Shown: positions 4,588-51,078 of the stretch, one piece after another
Numbering within the stretch: position 1 is the stretch's first letter
How the letters are laid out: every line of letters begins with the position of its first letter
Source of the DNA: Desulfofarcimen acetoxidans DSM 771
GTDB lineage: Bacteria > Bacillota > Desulfotomaculia > Desulfotomaculales > Desulfofarciminaceae
Direction of reading: 5' to 3'
Length of the DNA stretch: 64,000 nucleotides
Assembly: GCF_000024205.1 (NCBI RefSeq)
Contig: NC_013216.1
Location: forward strand, 2,418,001-2,482,000
Position numbers and translations under genes: made by a program
Notes under the pieces: generated by a model
The model's input: the letters and a program-made list of their open reading frames with translations, nothing else
What the model was told of the DNA's origin: nothing
The model's database searches: none

Positions 4588-4621
4588 GTTAGGATACTTT
4601 ACCGAAAGGGATGTCAATAAA

Positions 4622-6193
4622 TTGTCGACGATTATTGTAGATTATATTGTTATAGGCACCGGTATTGCCGGCCTCAGCTGTGCTTTAGGAGCGAGCAAGC
4701 ATGGTAATGTTGCTTTATTGACAAAAGGTGATTTTTTTGCCGGCAATACACCTCTGGCCCAGGGAGGTATTGCTTGCGCTTTGGCTCCTGGTGACTCACC
4801 GGAATATCATTACCAGGATACTTTAACAGCAGGAGCCGGTGGTTGCAACCAGGATACTGTGAATATACTTGTTCATGAAGGTATCGACAGGGTTCTGGAG
4901 CTAAAAAATATGGGTGTTCCGTTTGACTGCAAGGATGACGGAAGCCTGGATTTGGCCAAGGAAGGAGCACATAGCAAATCCCGCGTGGTTTCAGCTATGG
5001 GAGATTCTACAGGCAGGGCTATTGCAGAGACACTGGTAAAAGAAGTTAAGCAGATAAGTAATATCAAAGTATACGAATATACCATGGTTACAAAACTTTT
5101 GGTCAAAAATAAGGAATGTTTTGGTGTCGCAGCTGTTAACCAGTTTAATCAACAATTTACATTTCTGGCTAAGGCAACTGTATTAGCGGCAGGCGGTTGC
5201 GGACAAGTATATTTGCACACTACAAACAGCAAAACCTGTACCGGTGACGGATTTGCTCTTGCTTATCAAGCCGGGGCTGAGCTGGTTGATATGGAGTTTG
5301 TACAGTTTCACCCCACAGGACTGGCTTTAATAGAAAACCCCAGGATACTTATTTCAGAAGCTGTTCGTGGAGAAGGTGCTCTTTTAATTAATTCAAAAGG
5401 CCGGCGTTTTATGCAGCAGCATCACCCGATGGCTGAATTAGCCCCCAGAGATGTTGTGGCCAGGGGTATTTTTGAAGAACTGGCCGCTGATGAAAAAGTT
5501 TTTCTGGATACCACCCCCATAGGCCAGCACTTTGTTAAAAGATTTCCTTACATCACAGCTGCCTGTCGTGCCAGAGGCCTGGATCCGGTGAACAATTATA
5601 TCCCGGTAACACCTGTTGCTCATTTCATGATGGGTGGGGTAAAAACCGATCATAACGGCCAAACCTGTATTAAGAGACTTTTTGCCTGTGGAGAAGTGGC
5701 TTGTACCGGAGTTCACGGCGCGAACAGGTTAGCCAGCAATTCTCTGCTGGAAGGAGTTGTATTCGGTCACAGGGTAGCCAGAAGCCTGATTAACTACGAT
5801 ACTCTTACAGCCATCAGCCTATTCAATATAGACAAATCAGACACTGATTATGCTGGCAACTCTTTTATTCCGGTTAATGAGCAAGTCAATAATCAAACAT
5901 ATAACCGTTTCAGCAAACCTCATTCCTCCGTATACCGTAATAAATTAAGAAGTGTTATGTGGCAAAAAGTTGGCCTGGTTAGGACTGAAAAGCAATTATC
6001 AGATGCACTTAAATTAATAACAAAACTGGAAAAACAGTTGCCCCATGATGATTATGAAACATACAATATGGTTCTGACAGCAAAATTAATTACGGAAGCG
6101 GCTCTTAAACGCCAGGAAAGTCGCGGAAGTCACTACCGCAAGGATTTTCCTTACGCATTGCCAGAAAAACTCTACCACCAGGTATTACTTTAA
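4622..6193 (+). CDS. nadB: L-aspartate oxidase
   Basis: 523 residues. NadB is the FAD enzyme that oxidises L-aspartate to iminoaspartate, the first step of de novo NAD synthesis. The N-terminal FAD motif YIVIGTGIAGLSCAL is at residues 8-22. Further flavoprotein motifs include LAQGGIACAL, HPTGLAL with VRGEGA, FMMGGVKTD, and ANRLASNSLLEGVVFG. The C-terminal helical domain ends near RQESRGSHYRKDFP. I chose TTG 4622 because AAAGGG lies 11 bases upstream. The frame is open further up (ATG 4586, TTG 4523), but those overlap the promoter and operator. The length then matches the family. First gene of nadBCA-niaR. Confidence 0.93.
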   Translation: MSTIIVDYIVIGTGIAGLSCALGASKHGNVALLTKGDFFAGNTPLAQGGIACALAPGDSPEYHYQDTLTAGAGGCNQDTVNILVHEGIDRVLELKNMGVPFDCKDDGSLDLAKEGAHSKSRVVSAMGDSTGRAIAETLVKEVKQISNIKVYEYTMVTKLLVKNKECFGVAAVNQFNQQFTFLAKATVLAAGGCGQVYLHTTNSKTCTGDGFALAYQAGAELVDMEFVQFHPTGLALIENPRILISEAVRGEGALLINSKGRRFMQQHHPMAELAPRDVVARGIFEELAADEKVFLDTTPIGQHFVKRFPYITAACRARGLDPVNNYIPVTPVAHFMMGGVKTDHNGQTCIKRLFACGEVACTGVHGANRLASNSLLEGVVFGHRVARSLINYDTLTAISLFNIDKSDTDYAGNSFIPVNEQVNNQTYNRFSKPHSSVYRNKLRSVMWQKVGLVRTEKQLSDALKLITKLEKQLPHDDYETYNMVLTAKLITEAALKRQESRGSHYRKDFPYALPEKLYHQVLL

Positions 6194-28343: not shown

Positions 28344-28521
28344 AAAAACCCCACATATGCCGTAATCCCTAAAGTTTGAACTCCGCTCTCGCAGGTGGGT
28401 ACCCTCCTGTCTATTTTATGTTCCTCTATAAAAGAGTAATCAAGCCATAGACAGAGACCAGGTTCCCAATGTAATGGTATTGGCTCAAAACTTCAAGGAA
28501 GGTCACGCACACTGTAGGGTG
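28344..28521 (-). ncRNA. ssrS: 6S RNA
   Basis: About 178 nt on the minus strand between aspS and tcdA, the known location of bsrA-type 6S RNA in Firmicutes. A closing stem (5' CCCTACA with 3' TGTGGGG, extended by TGTGC/GCATA) ends in T5. The 5' side of the central bubble holds AGTTTTGAGCC, close to the pRNA template AGTTTTGACC of Bacillus 6S-1 RNA. A long, bulged inner stem includes TAGACAGGAGGGTACC against GGGAACCTGGTCTCTGTCTA. It should bind housekeeping RNA polymerase and dampen transcription in stationary phase. Confidence 0.85.
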
Positions 28522-28525
28522 TATA

Positions 28526-33352: not shown

Positions 33353-34315
33353 CTATTTCTCCGGCAAATAATCTCCTGTAACCAGGTTTTGATAAGTGAT
33401 TTTTTCTTTTAAAAGCTTCTTCTGCAGCATCCACTGCAATACCTGCTCGACATCTTTCTTCTCCGGCAGCTGCGGTGCCGGGAAGTGCTCCATGGCATAT
33501 ACACCGAGAGCCTCTTTAGGCACTTTAGCCTTATCTACTAACATAGCACGGTAAGATTCCGGATTATTATTTATTTCTTGGGCCGCCAAAGCATAACCGG
33601 CAAGGAATTTTTTTACGGCAGCACCGTTATTCTGAAGTGTTTCCCGGTTAAAAAATATGACAGTCTGAGATAAATTAGTTTCGGTGTCATCAATAATTAG
33701 TTTAGCGCCTTTGCTCTGGGCCAATGCCGCCATCGGATCGGGCAAACAGGCAGCTTTAATCTGTCCTTCCATTAATGCCTGATAGCGTACAGGTATTTTA
33801 GGAATAATGCTCTTTTTAATCTCTTCCGGCTGAAAACCTTTTTCCAGCAGCAAACTGTCTGTCACATACTCAATAATAGAGTTTTTGGAAACTGACACCT
33901 CGACGCCTTTTAACTGGTTAACATTGCTGATCCCGCTTTTCGGCGCTGATAAAATGGCAAATCTGCCTTCTTTTCCTGTTTCACCCAGTGAAAGACTAAC
34001 CACCTGGACCGGAAACCCCCCATTATATAAAGAAGCGGCAGCCAGGAGATCCCCCAGAGAACCGTCTATGGCTTTGGCCTGCAATGCACTGTCTCTTTCC
34101 ACCGCACTGGGAAAGGAAACCAATTCCACATCAACCCCTGCTTGTTTGAAATAACCTTTTTCACCGGCAACAATTAAAGGGAGAGAGTCTACAATCGGCA
34201 GAATGCCCAGCTTAATTTTCACATGCTCTTCTTTGTCCACTTTTTGCTGCTGGCTGCAGCCAACCAAAAGCAAAGAAAATAATACAGCCATGGACAGTAA
34301 TCTAAAACATTTCAA
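33353..34315 (-). CDS. ABC importer substrate-binding lipoprotein (NitT/TauT family)
   Basis: 320 residues from the TTG at 34315, eight bases behind GGAGGTG; the frame is open for 80 more codons through a terminator and is rejected there. Lipoprotein signal MAVLFSLLLVGCSQQ with the lipidated Cys near residue 17. Binding domain begins VKIKLGILPIVDSLPLIVAG and contains LGDLLAAASLYNGG. NMT1/TauA-like fold. The substrate is not shown by the sequence. First gene of the importer operon. Confidence 0.88.
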   Translation of the reverse strand: MKCFRLLSMAVLFSLLLVGCSQQQKVDKEEHVKIKLGILPIVDSLPLIVAGEKGYFKQAGVDVELVSFPSAVERDSALQAKAIDGSLGDLLAAASLYNGGFPVQVVSLSLGETGKEGRFAILSAPKSGISNVNQLKGVEVSVSKNSIIEYVTDSLLLEKGFQPEEIKKSIIPKIPVRYQALMEGQIKAACLPDPMAALAQSKGAKLIIDDTETNLSQTVIFFNRETLQNNGAAVKKFLAGYALAAQEINNNPESYRAMLVDKAKVPKEALGVYAMEHFPAPQLPEKKDVEQVLQWMLQKKLLKEKITYQNLVTGDYLPEK

Positions 34316-34429
34316 CAAAACCACACCTCCAAAACTAAGGTACTTGTCAACATGTGCTATGTTTCCCGGCACCTTCATTCTTTTCCTATCATGTTCAACT
34401 TTTAGTCGAAAAAATCCTTTTTTATTCTC

Positions 34430-34476
34430 AAAAAAAGAAAAAAGACAAGAGGGAATGCCCATTTCCCTTTTGTCTG
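34430..34476 (-). terminator. Second leader terminator (T2) of the ABC importer
   Basis: Minus-strand stem AGACAAAAGGGAAA / ATTCCCTCTTGTCT, a 14-bp stem with two mismatches and a 5-base loop, followed by TTTTTTCTTTTTTT. It lies 115 bases upstream of the first importer gene with no gene in front of it, so it is an attenuator. Confidence 0.75.
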
Positions 34477-34496
34477 ATGAAAGGAGGAATTTATAA

Positions 34497-34572
34497 CCAC
34501 ACGATAGAATGTCTGATAATACCGTATGGCCTGTAAGGAAGTTAAAAGCTTTTGCCAAGTAAAGCTTTTAAC
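34497..34572 (-). other. Two conserved-looking hairpins in the ABC importer leader
   Basis: Hairpin Q (34541-34572) pairs GTTAAAAGCTTT with AAAGCTTTTAAC. Hairpin P (34497-34529) pairs CCATACGGTA with TATCGTGTGG, allowing G-U, around a 13-base loop. Both lie between terminators T1 and T2, the place of an aptamer in a riboswitch. I do not recognise the fold. Confidence 0.5.
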
Positions 34573-34581
34573 AATTTTAAC

Positions 34582-34635
34582 AAAATAAAAAAACCATAAA
34601 TGTCTTCCTGTTTCTACAGGAAAAACCTTCATGGT
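34582..34635 (-). terminator. First leader terminator (T1) of the ABC importer
   Basis: Minus-strand hairpin (CCATGAA.../...TTTATGG outside, TTCCTGT/ACAGGAA inside, loop AGAA) followed by T7ATTTT. It lies 63 bases downstream of the promoter and no gene precedes it on this strand. Confidence 0.75.
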
Positions 34636-34704
34636 CATATCTTCGTTATCTATTAGAAATAATTCGGAAACTATAAACAACAACTTCCAGTTGCCATTAT
34701 CTTA

Positions 34705-34733
34705 ATTATAAACCAATGACCGTTGCCGCGCAA
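34705..34733 (-). promoter_or_regulatory. Promoter of the ABC importer leader
   Basis: Minus-strand TTGCGC (34728-34733), 17-bp spacer, TATAAT (34705-34710). Predicted start near 34698 gives a leader of about 380 bases containing two terminators. Confidence 0.6.
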
Positions 34734-50824: not shown

Positions 50825-50904
50825 GAAATGCTAATAAGGACACACTAAATAATACTTTTGCCATAAGAAAAATTCAAAAAAAGACAAAAATATTACTGCC
50901 CTCT

Positions 50905-51027
50905 ACCTTCTCCCATCCAGACTCTAACTGTCGGCCCCGGCTTTTCACCGGATCAACCCTTACGGGTTCGCGGGCTCGGCTATATTTAGGCCATACCGCC
51001 GGTACGGAATTTCACCCGTCCCTGAAG
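50905..51027 (-). promoter_or_regulatory. FMN riboswitch (RFN element)
   Basis: On the minus strand all conserved blocks are present: CTTCAGGGACGGGTGAAATT, ACCGGCGGTA, AGCCCGCGAACC, GATCCGGTG, GCCGGGGCCGACAGT and GTCTGGATGGGAGAAGG. It controls ribD-ribE-ribBA-ribH-pncB in response to FMN. Confidence 0.97.
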
Positions 51028-51078
51028 ATAAAGTGTATTAATTTGTGATACTTTCTTATAATATTGATCCACCTTTTA

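Follow-up and report, generated by a model that had tools for sequence, protein, structure and literature searches.

A candidate small RNA gene of Desulfofarcimen acetoxidans, with a leader terminator also found before metal importer genes and predicted antisense pairing to the CODH/ACS mRNAs

A run of strong hairpins precedes an importer gene in the chromosome of Desulfofarcimen acetoxidans DSM 771, within a window of 64,000 nt (the whole stretch of DNA analysed, to which positions refer); all of the features described here lie on its minus strand. A sigma-70-like promoter, recognised by sequence as TTGCGC and TATAAT separated by 17 nt (34705..34733), is followed by a predicted transcription start near 34698 and a putative leader terminator, T1 (34580..34636), comprising a hairpin (34636-34590) and a U-tract and identified through its folding z score, its match to covariance model R1 and its membership of a conserved family. 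The 5' arm of T1 contains an alternative mini-hairpin, GACC-AUGAA-GGUU (34624..34636), a candidate antiterminator or binding site supported by covariation in 135 copies. Next is hairpin P (34541..34572; covariation and duplex energy), with a loop, ACUUGGCA, antisense to the start codon region of acsA, encoding CO dehydrogenase (CODH), then linker 1 (UUCCUUACAG, 34531..34540), which is antisense to the acsA Shine-Dalgarno (SD) sequence and shares its final base with the bottom of the Q stem (34531). Hairpin Q (34495..34531; covariation and duplex rank) has a 13 nt loop, UCAGACAUUCU, antisense to the start codon region of acsB, encoding acetyl-CoA synthase (ACS), and is followed by linker 2 (AUAAAUUCCUCCUUUCAUC, 34476..34494), antisense to the acsB SD and bases upstream of it. 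The terminator T2 (34424..34475; hairpin 34475-34443 and U-tract) is the predicted 3' end of a small RNA. Beyond it is the gene for an NMT1/SsuA-like substrate-binding protein of a NitT/TauT-type importer (33353..34318), with an SD at 34330-34326 and a TTG start codon at 34318, accompanied by the importer's ATPase and permease genes. The promoter, T1, P, Q with its 13 nt loop and T2 had been described in the original prediction, and all are present, between 34733 and 34424. The window also harbours an FMN riboswitch (50901-51033) and a 6S RNA (28344-28523), both above the Rfam gathering score.

The RNA from 34700 to 34320 has a folding energy of -112.3 kcal/mol, against -80.7 +/- 5.4 for shuffled sequences (z -5.9; 0/100 shuffles), with z scores of -5.0 for T1 alone and -4.8 for P and Q together. 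Terminator-like sites were no more common than in shuffled sequence when sought by a simple scan (2 observed, 2.1 expected), and hence the case for the terminators rests on their conservation. Upstream of T1 in one of the sister copies (G001:C17:21k) lies the same TTGCGC-17-TATAAT arrangement, and a second copy in this genome, at 462k, is preceded by promoter-like sites; no promoter was recognised upstream of a third, at 971k. No Rfam family was matched at the gathering score, either here or in sister copies, in keeping with the proposal that P and Q lie outside known classes; there was likewise no match to the NiCo (czcD) riboswitch covariance model, and similarities to JA02, PyrR and DapZ, all far below the gathering score, are chance matches.

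Several observations assign the RNA to the minus strand. P and Q fold to -26.6 on this strand and -19.3 on the other, the minus strand is supported for these hairpins by the frequency of U-G pairs, and it is indicated as the transcribed strand at T1 by a terminator position that is G-U in 67 copies and G-C in 55. On the plus strand, an SD-like AAAGGAGGA precedes a short ORF (MSDNTVWPVRKLKAFAK) at about 34508; this reading is ruled out by the U-G pairs and U-tracts, and by the lack of conservation of the frame and length of the ORF in sister copies. The look-alike is a mirror image of the acs start regions. Covariation and variable length similarly rule out the inverted repeat of P being a DNA operator.

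Parts of the leader recur at other places in this genome and in relatives, as identified by blastn; searching with a loose 14-base pattern returned background only. An initial covariance model of P-Q-T2, R2, found 20 copies in 9/140 relatives, 15 of which are preceded by T1, and a refined model, R3, found 36 matches. These covarying copies come from 19 of the 113 class genomes searched and bear out the expectation that P and Q are conserved in relatives. In the alignment of P and Q, 91.8% of cells are paired and 17 of 21 pairs have changed on both sides, giving a covariation score of 0.697 as opposed to 0.250 in shuffles (0/500) and at most 0.209 in slid controls; fitting the alignment to the model gives the structure an advantage, but the slid controls collapse nonetheless. 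The stems of Q are almost wholly rewritten between genera, yet 96% of their cells remain paired, and a strong hairpin equivalent to T2 is present in sister copies. The sequence ATCAGACA had been noted as occurring both in the Q loop and before T2: the loop copy falls in a conserved motif, and the repetition itself is absent from those sister copies that were inspected.

The P-Q-T2 unit cannot be a leader only, as same-strand genes are missing ahead of two of this genome's copies: those at 462k, where the stop codon of a convergent peptide ABC gene lies 89 nt beyond, and at 971k. A gene follows T2 in about half of the copies, and in some of these the unit may have a role in cis. With its promoter-like sites, T2 and gene-less copies, it has the predicted form of a free-standing transcription unit. 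The five copies lacking T1 are G020:C56, G020:C66, G030:C1:303880, G086:C1:3939148 and G054:C102 (L148, L155, L147, L152 and L158); the two in G020 have a common upstream element, ATATGACAACT, and their control may differ.

The T1 of the window is scored at 59.5 bits by R1, which has about 20 matches in this genome and others in 57/100 related genomes, copy counts being somewhat high as some matches are the same hairpin on the other strand; across the phylum, it was found in 42 of 299 sampled genomes at E <= 1e-5. Among the matches listed for named genomes, the exact pattern occurs in Desulfallas, Desulfofundulus, Desulfoscipio, Desulfosporosinus, Syntrophomonas, Sporomusa, Acetobacterium, Tepidanaerobacter, Romboutsia and others; matches in Flavobacteriia and a few other groups are probably due to chance. 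Many copies, in the minus-strand sense, end 23-50 nt upstream of an SD-bearing start codon, gene starts having been called by a simple script rather than a gene finder. The genes following T1 in relatives encode NikA/CntA-like peptide-type binding proteins, FmdE, DUF3842, DUF4198, CbiM, FecCD, ZnuA-like proteins and methyltransferases. Among the matches listed for named genomes, CbiM and DUF3842 each follow 12 of 51 copies, Peripla_BP_2 seven, FmdE five, and SBP_bac_5 and ECF components four each. From these downstream genes, T1 appears to mark a metal regulon for uptake of the nickel/cobalt type. DUF3842, to which no function is assigned, is one of the most frequent genes immediately following T1 (e.g. 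L236:5967-6398 and L044:14549-14971), and its members are candidate proteins of nickel/cobalt handling. A further conserved T1-linked protein family has a start resembling LNKAEIMRKIEQEEIVIIQEEVKVDFDNRQQSP (L122:4126-5079, L125:3838-4791 and L175:2505-3497). In this genome, some T1 copies have no called gene close downstream (L112:4548-4593, L110:3469-3511 and L114:5058-5107), and these may head other small RNAs.

Nearly all T1 copies carry CCAYGRAGG in the 5' arm, which can alternatively fold as NNCC-AYGAA-GGNN, a structure mutually exclusive with the terminator. R1 was built without the mini-hairpin pairs. The pair beside CC/GG is intact in 133 of 135 distinct copies, against 125.4 in shuffles, and the next in 118, against 73.8, with A-U, G-C, U-A and G-U variants; these shuffles leave shared ancestry in place, making the evidence strong rather than formal proof. 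Since T1 is much more stable than the mini-hairpin, termination is the expected default, and a factor holding the mini-hairpin would thus be needed for expression. As a small hairpin overlapping the 5' arm of a terminator, it resembles the LicT/BglG RAT, PyrR and ANTAR sites; it is set apart from antiterminator-protein sites by having no Rfam match above the gathering score, and none of the antitermination systems already known fits. ANTAR sites consist of two small hairpins with hexaloops in which the first position is A and the fourth G. The aligned T1 copies instead display an AYGAA pentaloop on a CC/GG stem, and identification as an ANTAR site was accordingly rejected.

When reverse-complemented, the conserved loops and linkers of P-Q-T2 resemble ribosome-binding sites with start codons. 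The pattern GGAGG-N4-10-ATGCCAAGG has 2-5 matches per genome, largely at acsA starts, and its reversed control none (nine genomes); in G045 and G099 the matches include the small RNA itself. A search for GGAG-N3-12-ATGTCTGA in this genome and G001 gave 18 matches, including all four acsB starts. The targets were identified by NCBIfam models, far above cut-off, as the CODH catalytic subunit and CODH/ACS alpha/beta (TIGR01702 and NF040764), and acsB is present in 18 of the 19 genomes bearing P-Q. For instance, TTTAAGGAGGTTAAAGCTAATGCCAAGGTTTAAAG of acsA in this genome matches the reverse complement of P in the Desulfoscipio copy, TTAAGGAGGTTAAAGACCCTGCCAAGGTTAAG, and ATTGAAAGGAGGATTCAGAATGTCTGAA of acsB matches that of the 462k copy, ATTGAAAGGAGGA...AGAATGTCTGAAA. 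The Q unit tracks its acsB target across families: its reverse complement and acsB have in common GGTCGAAAGGAGG in f16, TTGAAAGGAGG in f1 and GTTTGAAA-GAGGAGACC in f5, and in the majority of f16 copies, as well as the f5 copy, Q favours acsB from its own family.

Some degree of pairing with every mRNA is expected of an anti-SD sequence. Duplexes were ranked against a control set of 439 SD-bearing start regions from the loci retrieved from several genomes. The duplex of the window's P with acsA spans about 30 nt and has an energy of -32.7 kcal/mol, ranking 0 (no control better) or 1 of 439 depending on the segment; that of Q together with linker 2 and acsB has about -32 to -32.7 kcal/mol, ranking 2 or 3. 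Across 26 copies, each compared with its own genome's targets, P-acsA is in the top 1% of start regions in 22, and is the best of all in 15, and Q-acsB is in the top 1% in 15; neither the swapped pairs, P-acsB and Q-acsA, nor the two reverse-complement controls reach this level in any copy. The targets acsA and acsB stand out among the controls, yet do not always rank first. The Q-acsB match is poor in some copies (G036, G072 and G030), which may have other targets or none. Co-folding gains were -9.7 kcal/mol with acsA and -19.3 kcal/mol with acsB. Full pairing would require the P and Q stems to open, or loop contacts. A P-like hairpin with a similar CUUGGC loop was also observed immediately downstream of the stop codon in some acsB genes, in the second acs operon of this genome, in G001 and in G060 (L336, about 4600-4800, equivalent to G000:C1:3956114-3956300; L337; and L386/L407, G060:C50:9317-9403), with a CUCCUUA linker in two of three cases. 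The acs mRNA may itself, judging from these sites, supply a 3'-UTR-derived antisense to acsA.

The locus probably encodes a small RNA under attenuation by T1, the role of which would be to repress the nickel enzymes CODH and ACS and thereby spare metal. From the computed structures, covariation, genes after T1 and complementarity to acsA and acsB, we infer expression, a metal signal, the direction of control and repression; the promoter, read-through and RNA size are predictions. RNA polymerase would start near 34698 and meet T1 first. In one state transcription would stop there; in the other, the 5' arm would be kept as the mini-hairpin, presumably held by an RNA-binding antiterminator or a ligand active at metal shortage, and transcription would continue to T2. 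Hairpin P and linker 1 could then pair with the start codon and SD of acsA, the mRNA of the CODH catalytic subunit, and Q and linker 2 with those of acsB, so that blocking of both start regions would lower production of the two nickel enzymes and spare the metal. The metal signal is deduced from the other genes downstream of T1, among them import genes of the nickel/cobalt type, and production under metal shortage is a prediction. The importer gene at this locus may be reached through read-through of T2.

The original prediction instead envisaged a possible tandem riboswitch before the importer. In a cis-acting model of this kind, T1 and T2 would be serial ligand-controlled terminators, P and Q parts of aptamers and the importer the controlled gene. 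The succession of promoter, two terminators and importer, the lack of an Rfam class, the conservation of P and Q and the genes downstream of T2 in some copies are all consistent with this arrangement. However, neither T1 nor P-Q was found at any of 29 orthologous NitT/TauT importer loci, so the leader is not the importer's own, and other genes, or none, follow T2 elsewhere; the importer apparently just happens to lie downstream of a unit that did not evolve for it. For the conserved linear portions of P and Q, antisense matches to the start regions of acsA and acsB are the better explanation, with no such match in swapped pairs or on the opposite strand, and T2 is better read as the place where a small RNA ends. 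What survives is T1 as an apparently switchable leader terminator, with a mutually exclusive alternative structure supported by covariation among T1 copies; two riboswitches in series are unsupported, and this explanation is improbable.

Two further possibilities accept the pairing with acsA and acsB. The RNA might tune carbon flow, with T1 reading a signal other than nickel or cobalt, such as a corrinoid, CO, redox state or a common cofactor: some of the genes that follow T1 (methyltransferases, DUF3842 and FmdE) have roles that are not settled, and some P-Q-T2 units have no T1. As metal importers (NikA-like, CbiM, ZnuA-like, FecCD and Peripla_BP_2) are the genes most often recognised after T1, and both CODH and ACS are nickel enzymes, such a signal seems unlikely. 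Complementarity being symmetric, acsA and acsB transcripts could alternatively pair with nascent P and Q in cis, altering termination at T2 and so the downstream gene, and some copies do have a gene shortly after T2, for example a NikA-like gene in G001:C7. Against this, other copies have no downstream gene, or very different ones, and we know of no bacterial mRNA acting as such a cis sensor partner, making this explanation very hard to credit.

The nearest known case to the proposed metal-sparing RNA is, by its logic, s-SodF of Streptomyces coelicolor, which is made at low nickel and contains a segment antisense to the ribosome-binding site and 5' end of sodN, the mRNA of a nickel enzyme (PMC3919588). 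Whereas s-SodF is processed from the sodF 3' UTR, is controlled by the repressor Nur and has one target (PMC3919588), the RNA described here is predicted to have its own promoter, a T1 attenuator and two antisense hairpins for two CODH/ACS mRNAs, and is found in Clostridia in several copies per genome. In the iron-sparing RNAs RyhB, PrrF and FsrA, metal shortage similarly leads to a small RNA and fewer metal-using proteins (PMC9294342). These are subject to promoter control by Fur, by contrast with the predicted leader-terminator control common to importers, and differ from the present RNA with its two nickel-enzyme targets and near-dedicated, long complementarity. Like the RNA proposed here, FsrA uses C-rich stretches against SD sequences. 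NikS of Helicobacter pylori is a nickel-regulated small RNA controlled by NikR, with reported targets among virulence and colonisation genes rather than nickel enzymes (PMC9294342, PMC5385501). Its likeness to the RNA proposed here is one of regulation by nickel, which for the latter is a prediction. No small RNA controlling CODH/ACS was found in the open-access literature.

At the core of the Wood-Ljungdahl pathway of acetogens and many sulfate reducers is CODH/ACS, which requires nickel. More tentatively than the function proposed for this locus, T1 might represent a new, widespread nickel/cobalt-responsive RNA switch of Clostridia, governing both importers and a two-hairpin small RNA that silences CODH and acetyl-CoA synthase, and thereby provide the pathway with an RNA-based metal-sparing circuit. 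If the function proposed for the locus is right, these bacteria would possess, for nickel, an equivalent of the iron-sparing small RNAs in which one RNA serves for two enzymes, and a leader switch common to a small RNA and metal importers across Clostridia. Direct predictions for metal-limited gas fermentation would follow, and the factor reading T1 could be sought.
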